The notes under the pieces: model-generated
What the model saw: only the letters and a program-made list of their open reading frames with translations
What the model was told of the DNA's origin: nothing
Databases searched by the model: none
Assembly: GCA_003281635.1 (NCBI GenBank)
Contig: QCBK01000001.1
Coordinates: 1 to 64,000, forward strand
Origin: Prochlorococcus sp. AG-347-G22
GTDB lineage: Bacteria > Cyanobacteriota > Cyanobacteriia > PCC-6307 > Cyanobiaceae
Direction of reading: 5' to 3'
Length of the DNA: 64,000 nt
Shown: positions 53,280 to 62,694 of the stretch, piece after piece
Numbering within the stretch: position 1 is the stretch's first letter
Layout: the number at the start of each line of letters is the position of its first letter
Made by a program: the position numbers and the translations under genes

Positions 53280-53429
53280 ATGGCAGACCAGAAACCTTTA
53301 TTTAAAGCACCTTATGACATAAAAGATGTAAGTGCACTTTTCGCTATAGTTGCCTTCGTATTAATAATTGCTGCCATAGTTGGTAATAACTTATTTGGTT
53401 TGTTTCAGGAAAATGTAAATTTCGGATAG
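53280..53429 (+). CDS. small membrane protein (49 aa), not in ORF track
   Basis: MADQKPLFKAPYDIKDVSALFAIVAFVLIIAAIVGNNLFGLFQENVNFG*. Confidence 0.55.
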   Translation: MADQKPLFKAPYDIKDVSALFAIVAFVLIIAAIVGNNLFGLFQENVNFG

Positions 53430-53499
53430 TGGCACTAGTAAGCGTTTAATTTTTATTTAACAAGCTCAATTAGATAAGCGGTATTCTTACAAATTTTTT

Positions 53500-53628
53500 T
53501 CACTCTTTAGCAGCATCTGAATTCCTTTCAGCTTCAAGTGCTTCCATACCTATGACTTTTATAAGTAAATGAGATTTATTCTCGCCAGCTTGTACGAACT
53601 CATATTCTGAAACAACTTCTTGACTCAT
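53500..53628 (-). CDS. small hypothetical protein (42 aa), not in ORF track
   Basis: MSQEVVSEYEFVQAGENKSHLLIKVIGMEALEAERNSDAAKE*. Confidence 0.5.
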   Translation of the reverse strand: MSQEVVSEYEFVQAGENKSHLLIKVIGMEALEAERNSDAAKE

Positions 53629-53710
53629 TGCAGTTATAAATAAAGAACATCAGTTTTGAATTCTTCAAATATGCCGCTAAAAGTTTAAATAATGAGTGTG
53701 TTTATAAAAA

Positions 53711-53726
53711 AGGGGCTAATAGCCCC
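53711..53726 (-). terminator. terminator (minus strand)
   Basis: GGGGCT-ATT-AGCCCC then TTTTTT on the minus strand. Confidence 0.6.
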
Positions 53727-53757
53727 ACATAATAAATCGAGTTTAAATTAGTAACTA

Positions 53758-53904
53758 TTAGTAGATTTTGGCGCCTATTGAACCAGCTTCTTCATCAGTA
53801 AATAACGATTCGGCCTCTCAATTAATGAATTCACTCCATTAAGCTGCATGCTGAAATGTCCCTTTTGAATCTCTGTATTTATCACTAGATCTACGGATAG
53901 TCAT
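53758..53904 (-). pseudogene. degenerate small gene with two in-frame stops
   Basis: MTIRRSSDKYRDSKGTFQHAA*WSEFIN*EAESLFTDEEAGSIGAKIY*, single continuous frame broken by TAA and TGA. Confidence 0.5.
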
Positions 53905-54008
53905 GGTAATAGATTTCACATCTAATTTGGCTTAGGGTTTCGAACTTTTTCAAAAAATAAACCACCTTTTGTTGTAATTAAAAGGCTAAAAATTTAATAC
54001 TCTTTCTT

Positions 54009-54050
54009 GGAGTGGTGTTGGAGTAGTTTAAAGCTTTAGTCTTGAGAGTA
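54009..54050 (+). pseudogene. degenerate tRNA-Ser(UGA) 5'-half remnant
   Basis: ggagtggtgttggagtagtttaaagctttagtcttgagagta vs tRNA ggaggggtggtcgagtggtttaaggctctagtcttgaaaacta. Confidence 0.65.
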
Positions 54051-54129
54051 AAAACAAGCGACTTATTGTAAGCGATCTGAGTAATATTTAAGCTTTGGAC
54101 TATTTTTTGGAGCTAATTATTCATTTAAA

Positions 54130-54858
54130 TTAATCCTTAATCATTTTATTTGAAGAAAAATTCACAAGCCATATAAAAGCGACAGCTAACGTAGAGACTT
54201 CTCCAAATTCTTCTAAGGTAAATAAAGAAAAACTTAAAATTTTTAAAAATGTATTGTCTCCTAATAAATACAATAAATTATTAAACTCATCAATAATTAG
54301 TCCGAAAAAGCCTAAACATATAAAAAAAACTGAATTTACTTTCAGGAACTCTTTAGATTCGGGATTCGAATTTCTTGAAAATATGATAAATATTATTATT
54401 ATTAAAAATAAAATAAATCCCCAATATAAGAACTCTTCAAACCCTGGAGATAACAATATTTCATCTTTTAAACTGTATTTTGTTTTTAAGTAATTGCTGA
54501 AATTTGAAACTAGATGATCATGTATTCTAAAAAAATCATCTAAAAATAAAAATAAATAAATAATAGGGATCGGCCTTGCAAATCTAAATTTTGACTTTGT
54601 TGTTATTTTCAAAGCAATAATGGAGCACCATAATAAAAGTGTGTACTGAAAAAACTCAAAGTAACTATTATCAAAAAGAGGTGAATACAAATTTTTTACT
54701 AAAATATATGCATCTAAATTTGTTATCCCAAATTCCAAACTTGACAATCTCCAACAAATAAAATAAAAAAATATTGTTGCAAAAACGCAAATTTTTAAAT
54801 TTAAAACAATTTCATTTTTTGAGTTACTAAAAAAATACTTTTTTAAAAAATTGAACAC
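54130..54858 (-). CDS. hypothetical multi-TM membrane protein
   Basis: 242 aa with ~6 hydrophobic segments. Confidence 0.6.
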   Translation of the reverse strand: MFNFLKKYFFSNSKNEIVLNLKICVFATIFFYFICWRLSSLEFGITNLDAYILVKNLYSPLFDNSYFEFFQYTLLLWCSIIALKITTKSKFRFARPIPIIYLFLFLDDFFRIHDHLVSNFSNYLKTKYSLKDEILLSPGFEEFLYWGFILFLIIIIFIIFSRNSNPESKEFLKVNSVFFICLGFFGLIIDEFNNLLYLLGDNTFLKILSFSLFTLEEFGEVSTLAVAFIWLVNFSSNKMIKD

Positions 54859-54993
54859 GATTTATTTAGAAATAATAAATTTAGAAAATATTTTCCAAGA
54901 ATAAGTATTTATATTTTTTAAGGAGAAGTTACTGCGAGAAATGTAACTTTTTTTATTATGTTTAAAAAATTAAAAATAATATTTTTCTAGAAA

Positions 54994-55031
54994 GGTTGTC
55001 GAGATCTTTAAGGCTCTAGTCTTGAAAAATA
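54994..55031 (+). pseudogene. degenerate tRNA-Ser(UGA) 5'-half remnant
   Basis: ggttgtcgagatctttaaggctctagtcttgaaaaata; 22-nt perfect match TTTAAGGCTCTAGTCTTGAAAA to the tRNA at 62535. Confidence 0.85.
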
Positions 55032-55395
55032 ATTTGTGTTGAAGTTATATCAGTAGTTTAGAGAATGAGTTGTCATCTGGTTACGAATTCTTGTCTATTG
55101 TTGTCAGGATTAGAGATTTATCAAAAATATTTTTTTGTTGACTTTTCTTGGAATGTCAACAATATATCGATCTCATAATTTTTTAAAGTGCTGATTTGGT
55201 GGTTTTGAGATACCTAAAACTTATCATCATATTCGCTCGTTTAAGGTACTTAAATAAAAGTAATTGGGCATATTAATGAGTTAATTGATTGAGAATGAGA
55301 ATAACGTTCCAAGAGAGTTTTCTTAATTATCAGGAGCTAAAATCTTTTGTCATAAGAGATAAACCCCTTAAGGAAAAGAAGTTTTTTATACTTTC

Positions 55396-55911
55396 TTACA
55401 AAGTCAACTGAGAATCTACTGGGAATGTTAATTTTTTTCTTGCATTTAACCCTGCTAATTCCACGACGACAGATAGTCCCGTAACTTCCTTTTTTTGCTC
55501 CTTGATTATTTCAGCGACACATAAGACAGTGCCACCAGTTGCCAAAAGATCATCCACTATCAGGTATGAATTGTATTTTTTTAATGATTCTTTTTGAATT
55601 GATAATGAATTTTCGCCATACTCTAATAAATAAGATTTTGAGATTAGATCACCAGGTAATTTACCAGGTTTACGAGCAACTATCATTGGTTTGGATGTAA
55701 AAAACGATAATGCCGTCCCAAATATAAATCCCCTAGCGTCTATTGAAATAATTGCTTCTGCTTCTAAGCACATTTGATTCTTGGACATTTTTTTTATTAA
55801 TTCAGAAAAATCTTCTGGCCTTTGAAGAATTGGAAGAATATCTTTGAAGATTATTCCTTTTTTTGGAAAATCAGGATAATCTCTGATTAATTTTTTTAAA
55901 TTTGTTGTCAA
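55396..55911 (-). CDS. apt: adenine phosphoribosyltransferase
   Basis: DYPDFPKKGIIFKDILPIL, ARGFIFGTAL, VARKPGKLPG, YLIVDDLLATGGT. Confidence 0.95.
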   Translation of the reverse strand: MTTNLKKLIRDYPDFPKKGIIFKDILPILQRPEDFSELIKKMSKNQMCLEAEAIISIDARGFIFGTALSFFTSKPMIVARKPGKLPGDLISKSYLLEYGENSLSIQKESLKKYNSYLIVDDLLATGGTVLCVAEIIKEQKKEVTGLSVVVELAGLNARKKLTFPVDSQLTL

Positions 55912-55949
55912 TGGATTTAGCTATAATGGAATGAACTTTCTTAACTATA

Positions 55950-56735
55950 TTGCTTAAGTCATCTGTTAAACCAACTCATATAGGTATTTTGTGTGCAATG
56001 CCTGAAGAAATAGGTTCTACATTAAAAAACTTAAAAAACATATCAGAAACAATTTATGGAGATTTAAAGATATTTTCAGGGGAATGGAGTGAAGATGGAT
56101 CAGAGGAGGTTTCTTATTTTGTTTCAGTGGCTTGGAGTGGTTGGGGAAAAGTTTGCGCCGCTAGAGCAGCAACAAGAATTATTGGAAAATCATACAAAAA
56201 TAGTAAAATTAAATTACTCCTTTTTACTGGTGTTGCTGGTTCAGGAAATTTAAATTTAAATCAATGGGATATTGTTATACCTTCTGAATTAATTCAGCAT
56301 GATATGGATGCGAGGCCTCTTTTTCCAAAATATGTAATACCTGTTTTGAAAAGAGCTAAGATTTATGCGCAAGACTCCTTGGTTAGCTGGGCCACACAAA
56401 CTTTAAGAAATTCAATTTCAGGTAGGTTTGGCAAAGTTGAGAATGGTTTAGTAGCAACCGCAGATAAGTTTATAGCTGATAAAAATTTACTAGATGAGCT
56501 TAAAATAGATCTTCCGGATCTAAAGGCAGTGGAAATGGAAGGTGCGGCAGTCGCGCAAATAGCATGTCAGGAAAATATACCTTGGTTAATAATAAGGGTT
56601 ATTTCTGATTCCGCTGATAGTAGTGCCGCACAAAACTTTTCAGCATTTTTAACAGAATATGAGAGGGATTCTTGGGAATTAATAAAGCTACTTTTGATAA
56701 ACTTTAAAAATTCCCCTATTTTATTTAGTGACTAA
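55950..56735 (+). CDS. 5'-methylthioadenosine/S-adenosylhomocysteine nucleosidase-like
   Basis: IGILCAMPEEIGSTL, FTGVAGSGNLNLNQWDIVIPSELIQHDMDARP, KAVEMEGAAVAQIACQ, IRVISDSAD. Confidence 0.88.
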   Translation: MLKSSVKPTHIGILCAMPEEIGSTLKNLKNISETIYGDLKIFSGEWSEDGSEEVSYFVSVAWSGWGKVCAARAATRIIGKSYKNSKIKLLLFTGVAGSGNLNLNQWDIVIPSELIQHDMDARPLFPKYVIPVLKRAKIYAQDSLVSWATQTLRNSISGRFGKVENGLVATADKFIADKNLLDELKIDLPDLKAVEMEGAAVAQIACQENIPWLIIRVISDSADSSAAQNFSAFLTEYERDSWELIKLLLINFKNSPILFSD

Positions 56736-56875
56736 TTTTTTATTAATATTTGTTTTTATTTTTTTTAATAATTTTTCCTCTATTTTTAATTAGTAAAACA
56801 AGTTAGCCCTATCATAAAAAGACTTCACAAGCAAAGTATGGTAATATTTGTCTAATTGTCTGGGAGAATTATTAA

Positions 56876-58042
56876 GTGAGAAGGACTTCTGATGTTAATA
56901 AAGATATTAAAGTTTTCAGTCAGAAATTTGAATCAAAGGAGTATGAAATTCCAAAGAATATTTCATTACCTTTTTCTAATGTAGTTGAATTAAATAGAAA
57001 ATACTTACTCGATGAATTTAAACTTGATGAATTAATTTTTGCAGTAACTGATAAATGTCCATTCCGATGCAAAACATGCTTTTATGCAAATACAATGGAT
57101 GCAAAAAAAGAAGAGGATGTTTATGGCATGAGTTTATTTGAGATTGAAAAAATTTCAAATTCATTAGGTAACTTTAGTAAGCTATTACTCACAGGAGGAG
57201 AGCCATTTCTTAGGAGAGATATTGCTGAATTATGTGGTATTTTTTATCACAACAATAATGTAAGGCACATTCACCTTCCAACAAATGCTTTGCACACAAA
57301 TAAAATCAAGGAAAGCGTAGAAAAAATTCTTAAATATTGTCCTGTCATTAATCTTACGGTCAGTATTTCAATAGATGGACTTCATGAAACGCACACTGAA
57401 ATAAGAGGCGTCAAAGAATCTTTTGGGAAGTTGATAGAAACTGCTCATGCTCTTGGAGAGTTAAGAGATAAATATGATAATTTACGATTGAATATTATTA
57501 CTGTCGTTAATAATCTAAATTTAACTGAAATAACTGATTTAGCTGAATTTGTAAAAAAGGAACTCCCAGTCGACTCTCACTCTCCAATACCTGTAAGAGG
57601 CAATCCTTATGATGAATATATGAGACCGCCCACCAAAGAGGAATGGGACAAACTTTCCAAAGAATTACTTGATTTGCAAGATTTCTGGAACAGTAAAAGA
57701 GATGAAAATGTCCTAAAAAAGAAACTCAGAACAAATACAGAAAAACATTTATATAAAGTTATTGGTAATGTATTAGCCGATGAAGGTTTACCTTTTGAAT
57801 GCAAAGCAGGAAAAACTATTGGCGTTTTAGAAGCAAACGGCGACGTAAGACTTTGTGAACTAAAAGAAGTTGTTGGAAATGTTAAAAATTTTGACTACGA
57901 CTTTAAAAAAGTTTGGTTCTCAGAAAGAGCCGAAAAGATTCGCAAAACAGTTCCGGGATGTTCTTGTACTCATCCATGCTTTATAAATAATAGTAGAAAA
58001 ATAGGTTTGGTTCCAAATTTAAAGACAGCTTTGGGCGGATAA
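56876..58042 (+). CDS. radical SAM protein with SPASM-like C-terminus (GTG start)
   Basis: CPFRCKTCFYAN (CxxxCxxC), LLTGGEPFLRRDI, C-terminal FECKAGK...RLCELKE...CSCTHPCF cysteines. Confidence 0.9.
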   Translation: MRRTSDVNKDIKVFSQKFESKEYEIPKNISLPFSNVVELNRKYLLDEFKLDELIFAVTDKCPFRCKTCFYANTMDAKKEEDVYGMSLFEIEKISNSLGNFSKLLLTGGEPFLRRDIAELCGIFYHNNNVRHIHLPTNALHTNKIKESVEKILKYCPVINLTVSISIDGLHETHTEIRGVKESFGKLIETAHALGELRDKYDNLRLNIITVVNNLNLTEITDLAEFVKKELPVDSHSPIPVRGNPYDEYMRPPTKEEWDKLSKELLDLQDFWNSKRDENVLKKKLRTNTEKHLYKVIGNVLADEGLPFECKAGKTIGVLEANGDVRLCELKEVVGNVKNFDYDFKKVWFSERAEKIRKTVPGCSCTHPCFINNSRKIGLVPNLKTALGG

Positions 58043-58051
58043 CTAAGAGAT

Positions 58052-58915
58052 ATGCTTGTCTCAATTATTCTTGTAATAAAAAATGAGGCCATATATATCC
58101 AAAAATGTATTGAGTCATTACTTAAACAAAGCCACAAAGAATTTGAAATAATAATATTGGATGATCAATCAACTGATGGGACTTTAGATATAATCAATTC
58201 GTTTAAAAACACTAAAATTAAAATTTTTACCACCAAACGAACCCACATAAAAGGTCATGCTAATAGGAGGAATTATGCTTTATCTAAAGCGAAAGGAGAG
58301 TTTATATTCTTTACCGATGGAGATTGCTTAACCCATTACAACTGGATAAAAGAGGGTCTCAAGGTATTTCAGAAAAAAAACTGTTTAGGAGTTGAAGGGA
58401 AAACAATTTACGAAGCAAAAAAAGGCATTACCGTTGCTGATTATGTCACTCAAAGATTATCACCTGGAGGATTTATGACATGTAATGTTGCTTATCGAAA
58501 GAGTGCAATACTTAATGCAGGAAAATTTGACCCTAAGTTCAAAGAAACCTATGAAGATAGAGATCTTGGAATTAAAATTTCCAAAATTGGAAAAATTATT
58601 TTCGAGGACAATATGTTAGTTTTTCATCAACAAAAAAAAGTAACTATCAAAACACTTTTTAACAGAGCAAAAAGAGCAGGGGATATGGTCTATTTTGATC
58701 TCAAACATGGAAGAAAAGCTAGTGAATACATTTCTGGAAGAATTATCTACCCAGAACATTTAGTTATTATTTTTATCCCACCACTAATCTTTTTATCATC
58801 CCGTATTACTTCACTTTTTGATATTTGCATCGCAATTTGTAAATATTTCAGTTTTATTTATGAAAGAATACTTATTTGGAGAAATGCAATTAGGTATAAA
58901 ATTTTTCTGATATAA
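58052..58915 (+). CDS. family 2 glycosyltransferase
   Basis: VSIILVIKNEAIYIQKCIESLLKQSHKEFEIIILDDQSTDGT, FFTDGDC, EDRDLGIKI. Confidence 0.88.
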   Translation: MLVSIILVIKNEAIYIQKCIESLLKQSHKEFEIIILDDQSTDGTLDIINSFKNTKIKIFTTKRTHIKGHANRRNYALSKAKGEFIFFTDGDCLTHYNWIKEGLKVFQKKNCLGVEGKTIYEAKKGITVADYVTQRLSPGGFMTCNVAYRKSAILNAGKFDPKFKETYEDRDLGIKISKIGKIIFEDNMLVFHQQKKVTIKTLFNRAKRAGDMVYFDLKHGRKASEYISGRIIYPEHLVIIFIPPLIFLSSRITSLFDICIAICKYFSFIYERILIWRNAIRYKIFLI

Positions 58916-58925
58916 AACAATAAAT

Positions 58926-59762
58926 TTGACTAATATCAACAAAATACTGCTTATTGATGTGGGTGGATCAAATATTGATATATATGAATATCTACCTTAT
59001 AGAAAAATACATAAATTGATTAATCAAATAAACACAAGAAATATTGATATTAATCAATGGGTGAATTCTTTAGGAATTGAAATTTACAACGATTATCAAA
59101 AAATCATACTTGGACTCCCTGGGGAAGTTAATAAAAAAGATAATGAGGTTTATTGCCCTCCACTAGGAAAAAAAATAAAAATTAAATCAATAAATGATAA
59201 TTCTTTAGAGACTGTAAATGATATGTTTATTCAACCTTTTTTAATTGACTTTGATAAATCAAAAAAGAATACACGCAGAATAATATTGAATAGTGGAACT
59301 TCAGTTGGTCTCTGTATTGTTGATAGTAACTTTTTTGTAAATCATGATCTTTCATATATTAAATCATTCGAATTTGCTCATGAGTTATTGAATGAAAGTG
59401 GCAAATCCCAACCACTATATGATCTAATTTCTCAAAATTCTAGATTCCATTGTAAAAAATTTTGTTCCATATATTCAGTTGGAGGATTTGCAGCAGCTCA
59501 TGGTATGAAAGTCGAAATCACAAAAGAAGAAATGCTCAGAATTAACAAAACTGAATTCATTAAATACATTAAAGATGAAAAAATGGACGCTAAAATTACA
59601 TCTCAGTGGATTTCATCATTAGAAAGAGATTTAGAGTATTTCTTAAGTAAAAAATATAAGTTCAATTCTAAACCTTCTTCAATAATTAGAGGAGGTCTTA
59701 TTGCTGCATTAAGTTCGAGTCCCCAAAAGAAATTCCTTAATTCATTCAACGTTGATATTTGA
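58926..59762 (+). CDS. ASKHA-fold sugar-kinase/ROK-like protein (TTG start)
   Basis: LLIDVGGSNIDIYEY, ILGLPGEVN, ILNSGTSVGL, IRGGLIAAL. Confidence 0.55.
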   Translation: MTNINKILLIDVGGSNIDIYEYLPYRKIHKLINQINTRNIDINQWVNSLGIEIYNDYQKIILGLPGEVNKKDNEVYCPPLGKKIKIKSINDNSLETVNDMFIQPFLIDFDKSKKNTRRIILNSGTSVGLCIVDSNFFVNHDLSYIKSFEFAHELLNESGKSQPLYDLISQNSRFHCKKFCSIYSVGGFAAAHGMKVEITKEEMLRINKTEFIKYIKDEKMDAKITSQWISSLERDLEYFLSKKYKFNSKPSSIIRGGLIAALSSSPQKKFLNSFNVDI

Positions 59763-59905
59763 TATTTAAAAATTAAACCGTCATGATAATTTTGTATATG
59801 GTTTCATAAGTCATCTTAACAAGTAAATAATTACACCAACAAATGTGAAAATCATTAATTAATTAATTAATTTACTTTACTATAAAATAATTTTCCAATG
59901 ATTTA

Positions 59906-61219
59906 TTATCCATTCACTCCTGTTAAAAAACTTACTCTTATATTTGTGATTACTACTCCAAATACTATGGTAAAAAATAAAATATGAGAATATAAGTGAT
60001 TTTTTTTTAACCAACTAAATTGAAAGAATATGGAAATAATACCAATGCTAAAAATGGGCGCAAAAAATATAGAGTGACCTTGAAGATGAGCTGCTAGAGC
60101 CTGTTGAAAAATAGAAATAAAAACTATGAATGTTATGAATAAGGGAACCAATATCCATCTAGAATAAACTTCTTTACGTGCGAATAAAGAGTATGAAATA
60201 ATAGCTATGATTGAAATTGTAGAAAAGCTAATAATAGAAAATATACAATTATAAGTAAAAATTTGCACAAAGTTAATATCAGCCAAATCAACATTAAATG
60301 ACGCAGGCTGTAGGCAGAATGAAATTCTATTTCCACCTATAAATTGTAATGCTGATATCCATCCTCCATGATGCCAATTCAATGCATTATTAATTCCAAC
60401 CCTAAACAAAAAACTACTATTAGATAATTGGTATCCATTAATTCTTAAAAATATATTTTGTATTAAATTTATTAAAGGAGCAAAGAAAAAGACAATAATA
60501 AAAATTTTTGATTTAATTTTACTTCTAAAACCTGGTGGAAAAATGAGTATTAAATTTTTATTTTTATTAAAGATAAATACATAGATATAAATTAATAAAT
60601 ATAAAAATCCTAAAAGTGCAGACCAATGGTATTGCCAAAGAAGACCATAAGTTAATACAGCTAATCCAATCCTATATTTAGAACTATAAAATAACAGATA
60701 AGAGATAAATAAAAATAATAAAAAATAAGTATCTTGCCAGGAAGCAAGTAACATTCTATACGTATAAGGAGATGTTGAAAATATGATAAAAGATGAGACG
60801 CCAATTATGTTACTAGATAAATTTTTGTACTTTTCAAATAATTTCAAAGAAATCTCTGCGACAGAAAATGAAAGTAAAAATATAATTAATTTGTCTACAT
60901 GGGGAGCTACTTTTGAAAATAATTGCTCTCCCCCTATTTTCATTAATGCATAATAGTGAATATATTCATGAGCTTGTACAGCATATATCTCTTTTTCAGA
61001 AAAATCTAAAGGGAGCCAACTAGTTAATCCGTATTTTAATAAAGCAGGATTATCTAACATATGTGCAATAGCATTTCTTACTCTTTCTTCTTGAAATGGC
61101 AGCCAATCTATTCCTCGCAATGATGCTTGACTCATAAAAGATAGATAACATAACCAAATAGAAAAATAACAAAATATTCTTAATCTATAATCAGATTTTA
61201 AAAAATTTATAAATCTCAT
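59906..61219 (-). CDS. polytopic membrane protein (GT39/oligosaccharyltransferase-like architecture)
   Basis: 437 aa, ~10 TM segments. Confidence 0.55.
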   Translation of the reverse strand: MRFINFLKSDYRLRIFCYFSIWLCYLSFMSQASLRGIDWLPFQEERVRNAIAHMLDNPALLKYGLTSWLPLDFSEKEIYAVQAHEYIHYYALMKIGGEQLFSKVAPHVDKLIIFLLSFSVAEISLKLFEKYKNLSSNIIGVSSFIIFSTSPYTYRMLLASWQDTYFLLFLFISYLLFYSSKYRIGLAVLTYGLLWQYHWSALLGFLYLLIYIYVFIFNKNKNLILIFPPGFRSKIKSKIFIIVFFFAPLINLIQNIFLRINGYQLSNSSFLFRVGINNALNWHHGGWISALQFIGGNRISFCLQPASFNVDLADINFVQIFTYNCIFSIISFSTISIIAIISYSLFARKEVYSRWILVPLFITFIVFISIFQQALAAHLQGHSIFFAPIFSIGIISIFFQFSWLKKNHLYSHILFFTIVFGVVITNIRVSFLTGVNG

Positions 61220-61302
61220 GAATTAGTGATTATATTTACTTAAAGATTTGATTTAAATTTAAATAAATAACTTAATGATTTCTTTTAAGATTATAAATTA
61301 TC

Positions 61303-62265
61303 CTAACTATCAAAACCTACTTTTTCATCTAATAAATACAAAGGTCTGTCCTTATTTTCTAGATAATTTCTTCCTATATATTCTCCTATAATTCCTAAAC
61401 AAAATAATTGAACACTACTTGTCATGAGAATTGCAAGTGTAACAGTAGCCCAACCTGGTACCCAAGTTGAAGTTAAAAACCTGATAAGTAAGACATATAA
61501 AATTCCCAAAGTTGCAACACATGCTGCTATCAAGCCAAAATAAGTAGCTAACCTTAATGGTGTTTTTGAAAAAGCAGTTAAACCATCCAAGGCAAGATTA
61601 ATCATTTTTCTTAAGGAATATTTTGTTTTACCTGCAAATCTCTCATCTCTTTCATAAGCAATATATGTTTGACGAAAACCTGTCCAGCTAATTAATCCTC
61701 TAATATATCTACTCTTCTCTGGCATTAGTTTTAAAGCGTTTACTATTCTACGATCAATTAATCTAAAATCTCCAGTGTCGAGAGGAATATCAAAATCTGA
61801 TAAATATCGCACTAATTTATAGAAAAATTTAGCACTGATTCTTTTAAAAACACTTTCAGATCTTCTACTTTCTCTCTTACCATAAATAACTTCATACCCT
61901 TCCTCCCAGAGCTTAATCATTTTATTTGCAATCTCAGGAGGATCTTGTAAATCTGCGTCAATAATGATAACAGCATTTCCATATGCAAAGTTTAATCCTG
62001 CCTGAAGAGCTGCTTGATGTCCAAAATTTCGTGAAAGAACTAATAATTTAATTCTGGAATCTTTTGAAGCAATAGATTTAATAATATCTTTAGTTTGATC
62101 AGTACTGCCATCATCTATAAAAATAATTTCATGTTTATATATTGAATTACTTTTTGCAATTACTTCCTTAATCCTCTTTATAGTTACTTCTACAACGTCT
62201 GCTTCGTTGAAGCATGGAATCACCCACGAAATCAAAGCATTGTTTTCAAGACTAGAAATTTCCAA
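61303..62265 (-). CDS. polyprenyl-phosphate glycosyltransferase (GtrB/DPM1-like GT2)
   Basis: SWVIPCFNEADVVE, IFIDDGSTDQT, LSRNFGHQAALQAGL, DADLQDPPE, two C-terminal TM segments. Confidence 0.92.
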   Translation of the reverse strand: MEISSLENNALISWVIPCFNEADVVEVTIKRIKEVIAKSNSIYKHEIIFIDDGSTDQTKDIIKSIASKDSRIKLLVLSRNFGHQAALQAGLNFAYGNAVIIIDADLQDPPEIANKMIKLWEEGYEVIYGKRESRRSESVFKRISAKFFYKLVRYLSDFDIPLDTGDFRLIDRRIVNALKLMPEKSRYIRGLISWTGFRQTYIAYERDERFAGKTKYSLRKMINLALDGLTAFSKTPLRLATYFGLIAACVATLGILYVLLIRFLTSTWVPGWATVTLAILMTSSVQLFCLGIIGEYIGRNYLENKDRPLYLLDEKVGFDS

Positions 62266-62534
62266 AAATGAGATAAAATGTATAACTAAATAATAGCGGA
62301 AAGAGAAGGTGTGAACATTAATGACATTTTATGACCTAAACAGATTTCAAGTGCGGCAAGTGATATTTGAACTACTTTAGTTAGTTATTTAAATATTATT
62401 TTTTATTGAACATTTTCATAAAATTCCTCTCTCAGACTAGTTTCTTGAAATAAATTTTTAATCTTTGTATTTATAGACTATGACTAATTTCTTATGTTAT
62501 AGTTTTTAAGTTCAACAAAACTGAATAGCCCTTT

Positions 62535-62621
62535 GGAGGGGTGGTCGAGTGGTTTAAGGCTCTAGTCTTGAAAACTAGCGTATCTGCAAGGGTACCGTGG
62601 GTTCGAATCCCACCCCCTCCG
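62535..62621 (+). tRNA. tRNA-Ser (anticodon UGA)
   Basis: Acceptor GGAGGGG/CCCCTCC+G, anticodon stem-loop CTAGT-CTTGAAA-ACTAG, long variable arm, T-loop GGTTCGAATCC. Confidence 0.97.
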
Positions 62622-62694
62622 TTTAAATAAAAAGAACCGAATAATATAAACGCCTTTTTGAAACGTTATTGTTAAGATAAGTCTTATTTAGATT

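Follow-up and report, generated by a model that had tools for sequence, protein, structure and literature searches.

Results

The first 64,000 nucleotides of contig QCBK01000001.1 of Prochlorococcus sp. AG-347-G22 (the whole stretch analysed here, referred to as the window) contain a single tRNA gene, an intact tRNA-Ser(UGA), which is preceded by an accessory block holding two displaced copies of the gene's own 5′ half (frag1 and frag2; Table 1). We consider it highly probable (about 86%) that this block consists of integrative elements stacked in order of time at tRNA-Ser(UGA) and since decayed. The window records at least three units and at least three entries, because a class A element end stands before frag1, a second class A end before frag2 and a class U end before the tRNA, the end classes (U, A, B, C and D) being defined on the 70 bp that precede a tRNA or a fragment. 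A first-pass annotation, made from the sequence alone, had read the two remnants as two successive events; the succession stands, and the number rises to at least three.

Displaced 5′ halves and the empty site

The tRNA gene is called by ARAGORN (62534–62622) and Rfam (62535–62621, plus strand). An ungapped scan of both strands of the window with the first 43 nt of tRNA-Ser(UGA) found the two fragments, both upstream of the tRNA and on its strand. They agree with it at 33 (frag1) and 35 (frag2) of 43 positions, compared with 23/43 for the next-best site on either strand, and the best match in each of 100 Markov shuffles reached 22–26/43 and never more. The two partial copies noticed in the first pass are therefore real, although frag2 spans 54989–55031 and not 54994–55031. 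Whole-genome BLAST recovered frag2 (E=6.7e-7); frag1 fell below its cut-off and was detected by the window scan only. No copy of the tRNA 3′ half was found in the window (best 23/44). The window thus shows what the Islander survey recognizes islands by, an intact tDNA together with an end fragment that has the same orientation and lies on the expected side.

The block is accessory. In at least six relatives (L034, L043, L044, L057, L058 and L066) the site is empty in the sense of Islander: a small core gene, located at 53281–53430 in the window, ends about 208–229 bp from tRNA-Ser(UGA), and the next core gene begins about 160 bp after it. The cargo of the window was not found at the tRNA-Ser(UGA) site in any relative examined. 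The interval of 54–62.5 kb, which the first pass had singled out for a synteny comparison, is therefore not gene content that relatives share regardless of gain or loss. The block itself was recognized correctly, but it begins at 53885, to the left of frag1, and not at the first fragment.

The same comparison bears on whether the fragments could have nothing to do with insertion, as 5′ tRNA pieces kept for their function or as conserved elements of intergenic DNA. Many relatives do have a 5′ half some 165 bp upstream. However, the fragments are absent from the empty-site genomes, and locus L049 is an empty site plus a precise insertion of about 166 bp (L049 −166..0); moreover, the window copies are decayed, and neither matches any Rfam family. 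We find this explanation barely credible.

Breakpoints in the anticodon loop

We took a census of fragments in 43 relatives whose tRNA-Ser(UGA) is intact, picked blind to fragments. Displaced 5′ halves lie upstream in 22 of the 43 and displaced 3′ halves downstream in 10, with both present in 5. Stacked on the tRNA, 32 displaced 5′ halves agree with it through base 39 and drop at base 40, and ten displaced 3′ halves agree from base 33 on and drop before it. The two limits overlap in CTTGAAA (bases 33–39), which is the 7-nt anticodon loop and is flanked by the palindromic anticodon stem. This fits the overlap-plus-core layout known for tyrosine recombinases at tRNA genes (PMC8371274), and CTTGAAA is the presumed strand-exchange heptamer. 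The first-pass proposal of a crossover in the anticodon loop is borne out by these limits, and a check of the fragments against Prochlorococcus tRNA-Ser(UGA) genes, which it had advised, shows that relatives carry near-perfect displaced 5′ halves.

These limits also count in weighing replication slippage, by which the fragments would be tandem partial duplications. The regular 165-bp spacing in many relatives favors slippage, but the fragments and the tRNA are preceded by sequences of different classes, 3′-half copies occur downstream only, and the breakpoints fall on the anticodon loop, so that we regard slippage as very improbable.

Insertions of 0.6–3.4 kb lie downstream of the tRNA in L206, L210, L213, L041, L047, L052, L056 and L062–L065; each ends in a displaced 3′ half and is without a recombinase of the tRNA-Ser family inside. 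A second anticodon-core-like sequence is present about 120–130 bp past the displaced 5′ half at L040 (−8550), L054 (−6529) and L210 (−8658).

A recombinase family at tRNA-Ser(UGA)

An open reading frame 1.2 kb upstream of tRNA-Ser in genome G032 was the entry point to a family of divergent tyrosine recombinases, which we searched for by running an alignment of seven of them (A1) against 200 Prochlorococcus genomes. These recombinases score below the Pfam cut-off; the catalytic residues R247, R340/H341, G362-H363 and Y372 are invariant in the seven, as in lambda-type enzymes. All 27 recombinase loci with a tRNA in reach have tRNA-Ser(UGA). In 26 of them the recombinase is upstream and divergent, typically about 190–220 bp away, and the 20 of these that were not preselected by tRNA position all agree. 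At the 27th locus, L119 from IMG/VR, the recombinase is downstream on the same strand, 184 bp from the tRNA. Hence tyrosine recombinases do adjoin this tRNA in other strains, where the first pass had advised looking for them, and they stand directly upstream. The recombinase has no match in the phage collection. A scan with a single protein pointed to one relative by name, Prochlorococcus sp. AG-355-J09.

At seven loci (L040, L054, L208, L209, L210, L215 and L223) a displaced 5′ half of 98–100% identity is located 6.6–9.1 kb upstream, and these near-perfect halves mark the far ends of the elements. The contents of the elements vary. The L040 element is satellite-like, with a Prim-Pol, a VapE-like helicase, a small-terminase-like gene and a second recombinase, and a small serine recombinase lies downstream of the tRNA; the L051 element has type I restriction-modification genes, and that of L036 has genes read by eye as phosphate/arsenate functions. 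L119 (IMGVR_UViG_2667527299_000001) is a satellite-like element akin to that of L040, on the opposite (3′) side of tRNA-Ser(UGA). Locus L216 (G134:C15) has two identical inverted copies of recombinase plus tRNA on one 18-kb contig, which is likely an artefact of assembly or amplification.

Locus L215 holds an intact two-element stack. The first recombinase there is of type D and lies about 214 bp from a displaced 5′ half, where the end is of class D; the second, of type U, lies 210 bp from the tRNA, where the end is of class U. In the recombinase tree, the enzymes with U, C and D ends form cleanly separate groups, and the L215 enzymes match their own ends. Together with the displaced 5′ halves and the adjacency of the recombinases, this stack upholds the first-pass idea of elements that bring a replacement 5′ half in successive events. 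In most loci the right end carries a TGnTATAAT extended −10 promoter about 36–41 nt before the tRNA, and every element entry thereby swaps the promoter of tRNA-Ser(UGA). In six relatives with at least two 5′ fragments the left one is more decayed, and the window shows the same order (33/43 on the left, 35/43 on the right).

Anatomy of the proposed window stack

The right end of unit 1 has the extended −10 promoter TGTTGTAAT, 39 nt upstream of frag1, and unit 1 with its fragment is about 77–82% identical to units in L040, L046, L061, L070 and others. Frag1 bears this element-supplied class A promoter and is not the original 5′ half. The leftmost remnant had been taken for that original in the first pass; it is indeed a displaced half, but the oldest one was lost by deletion at the DUF3303 gene. 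Compared with L050, about 390 bp are absent at the junction at 53887, including the expected displaced 5′ half. Class A units with about 165 bp from fragment to tRNA are also seen in L046, L049, L050, L061, L069 and others that have no upstream recombinase.

Unit 3 contains apt (adenine phosphoribosyltransferase), an MTA/SAH nucleosidase, a radical SAM protein, two family-2 glycosyltransferases and unknown proteins of 278 and 437 aa. Its left end is element-like (score 27, null maximum 22). Its right end contains the promoter that tRNA-Ser(UGA) now has, TGTTATAGT, 40 nt upstream of the gene. We considered whether this class U flank is ancestral only, which would contradict the stack; this was ruled out, as class U ends are found with 16 recombinases and are thus also element ends.

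Two candidates at the left edge were also rejected. The segment 53843–53886, tried as a third and very decayed fragment, is part of the DUF3303 gene remnant common to relatives. A recombinase-made deletion at a DUF3303 pseudo-core (GTCTTTAAAACTA in L063) is suggestive only, with 10–12/16 matches, which, exact position aside, does not exceed what chance yields at best across 900 bp.

Table 1. Features of the tRNA-Ser(UGA) region, in window coordinates
Feature	Position	Strand	Remarks
Left flank	53431–53887	.	82–83% to a subset of relatives: L042, L050, L063, L119
Truncated DUF3303 gene remnant, end of left flank	about 53743–53886	-	homology with relatives stops at 53887
Unit 1, class A, non-coding, 124 bp	53885–54008	+	own left displaced 5′ half gone
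Frag1, displaced tRNA-Ser(UGA) 5′ half	54009–54051	+	33/43 identical; oldest surviving scar in the proposed order
Unit 2, about 1 kb, one gene, class A right end	54009–54988	+	opened by frag1
242-aa membrane-like protein gene, sole gene of unit 2	54130–54858	-	
Frag2, displaced tRNA-Ser(UGA) 5′ half	54989–55031	+	35/43 identical; 22-nt perfect run
Unit 3, 7.5-kb cargo unit, no recombinase	54989–62534	+	opened by frag2
Class U right end of unit 3	62418–62534	+	carries the present tRNA promoter
Intact tRNA-Ser(UGA)	62535–62621	+	ARAGORN, Rfam, BLAST; sole copy in the assembly

Several observations weigh against a stack of integrative elements. As the first pass had noted, no integrase is visible: we found no tyrosine recombinase in the block, which therefore lacks the integrase inside the island that Islander looks for, and the draft genome (85% complete) has only a 389-aa core recombinase common to nearly every relative. 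Class A ends never stand beside an upstream recombinase, so that units 1 and 2 would need movement in trans. Between the left end of unit 2 and known element ends there is only a weak resemblance (a score of 24, against a null maximum of 24). Finally, the class U end of unit 3 resembles the empty-site relatives closely enough that the tRNA end may owe its restoration to homologous recombination.

Proposed mechanism and the entry of unit 3

We propose that the tyrosine recombinase of intact elements would act on a 7-bp core with the very sequence of the anticodon loop. In its circular form, the element would carry a promoter, a 5′ half and the core adjoining the recombinase gene. Integration would join the promoter and 5′ half of the element to the resident 3′ half, giving a whole tRNA with a new promoter, and the resident 5′ half would end up at the outermost left of the element. 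Successive entries would then leave a row of dead 5′ halves, the oldest at the left and the youngest at the right. The recombinase is presumably active, and synteny suggests that elements move at tRNA-Ser(UGA). The window units would once have carried the divergent tyrosine recombinase and since lost it. Since no recombinase remains in the window, we infer the recombinase-driven entry of the 7.5-kb cargo unit.

An alternative for this last step is that units 1 and 2 are true scars and that homologous recombination brought in unit 3, the exchanges taking place near frag2 and within the shared sequence of class U end, tRNA and right flank. Glycan islands are often exchanged in Prochlorococcus, and homologues of apt, the nucleosidase, the 278-aa protein and the radical SAM protein occur together in a glycan island of genome G014 that has no tRNA (45–66% identity; radical SAM 30%). 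Positions 62418–62534 are 96–97% identical to the empty-site relatives L044, L057, L058 and L066, with abrupt divergence upstream of 62418, and the missing recombinase points the same way. On the other hand, the start of unit 3 coincides exactly with a displaced 5′ half, its element-like left end comes next, its right end belongs to the class found with recombinases, and genome G231 has radical SAM and glycosyltransferase cargo directly upstream of tRNA-Ser(UGA). On balance, we think homologous entry of unit 3 unlikely, though well short of negligible.

More broadly, and tentatively, a single recombinase family dedicated to tRNA-Ser(UGA) may sustain satellites that are autonomous, elements with cargo and, at the small extreme, non-autonomous units of about 165 bp. 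The small units might consist of an attachment site and promoter only, moved in trans to either side of the tRNA, and the tRNA promoter might be replaced repeatedly. The 124-bp units (165-bp spaced) may offer a way to learn if an attachment site can move in trans by itself.

Discussion

Integration in anticodon loops and islands marked by tRNA fragments are textbook phenomena. The elements at tRNA-Ser(UGA) are of a known kind, tRNA-targeted and tycheposon-like, and their uncommon feature is 5′ polarity. Owing to this 5′-replacing polarity, a tRNA gene with a single copy in the assembly takes its promoter from mobile elements. The fragments provide a base-resolved, time-ordered record of integration at one tRNA gene across Prochlorococcus.

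Tycheposons, reportedly described by Hackl et al. 2023, are said to be tRNA-targeted elements of Prochlorococcus with a divergent tyrosine recombinase and satellite-like or cargo-bearing contents that remodel genomic islands; they are also treated in PMC10872708 and PMC10187409. The tRNA-Ser(UGA) elements are alike in host and in integration at a Prochlorococcus tRNA gene, and they may be alike in the divergent tyrosine recombinase, in satellite or cargo content and in island remodelling; the window units bear cargo only, with no recombinase or hallmark genes. Likened by description and not by sequence, tycheposons are the likely home of these elements.

The Islander survey counts 159 islands with a 5′ fragment among 3919 (4%), and tandems with at least three members number only 4 (PMC4383910). 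The window shares with such islands the intact tRNA plus displaced end fragment, the anticodon-centred site and the tandem array, but its stack would fail the Islander integrase filter. Integration into the 5′ half has been called rare in bacteria (PMC8371274). The pTN3-like integrases of that study likewise leave a rebuilt tRNA driven by an element-side promoter; however, they are archaeal and different enzymes, and no such stacks are described there. In picocyanobacteria, the integrase cluster158946 is found at tRNA-Phe and tRNA-Cys, typically upstream, in variable islands and often near a small serine recombinase (PMC10187409). The position upstream of a tRNA in variable islands is alike, as is the small serine recombinase at L040, but the tRNAs differ from tRNA-Ser(UGA), and this likeness too is one of description and not of sequence.

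Cargo of unit 3 and its recurrence

The radical SAM protein has distant matches only, in 3 of 199 other Prochlorococcus genomes, and the 278-aa protein is matched in 1 of 98 relatives; the 242-aa protein of unit 2 likewise has distant matches only, in three of the 199 genomes. It is plausible that apt, the nucleosidase, the 278-aa protein and the radical SAM protein form a module that recycles 5′-deoxyadenosine released by radical SAM enzymes. The stretches concerned are 55396–59762 of the window, 7163–10799 of L169 and 5507–8918 of L237: the four recur together in the G014 island, and apt lies within 3 kb of a radical SAM gene in G008. The divergent copy in the window island is the sole apt of the draft genome (G000). 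In two relatives, L170 and L171, no more than about 0.6 kb separates apt from tRNA-Pro.
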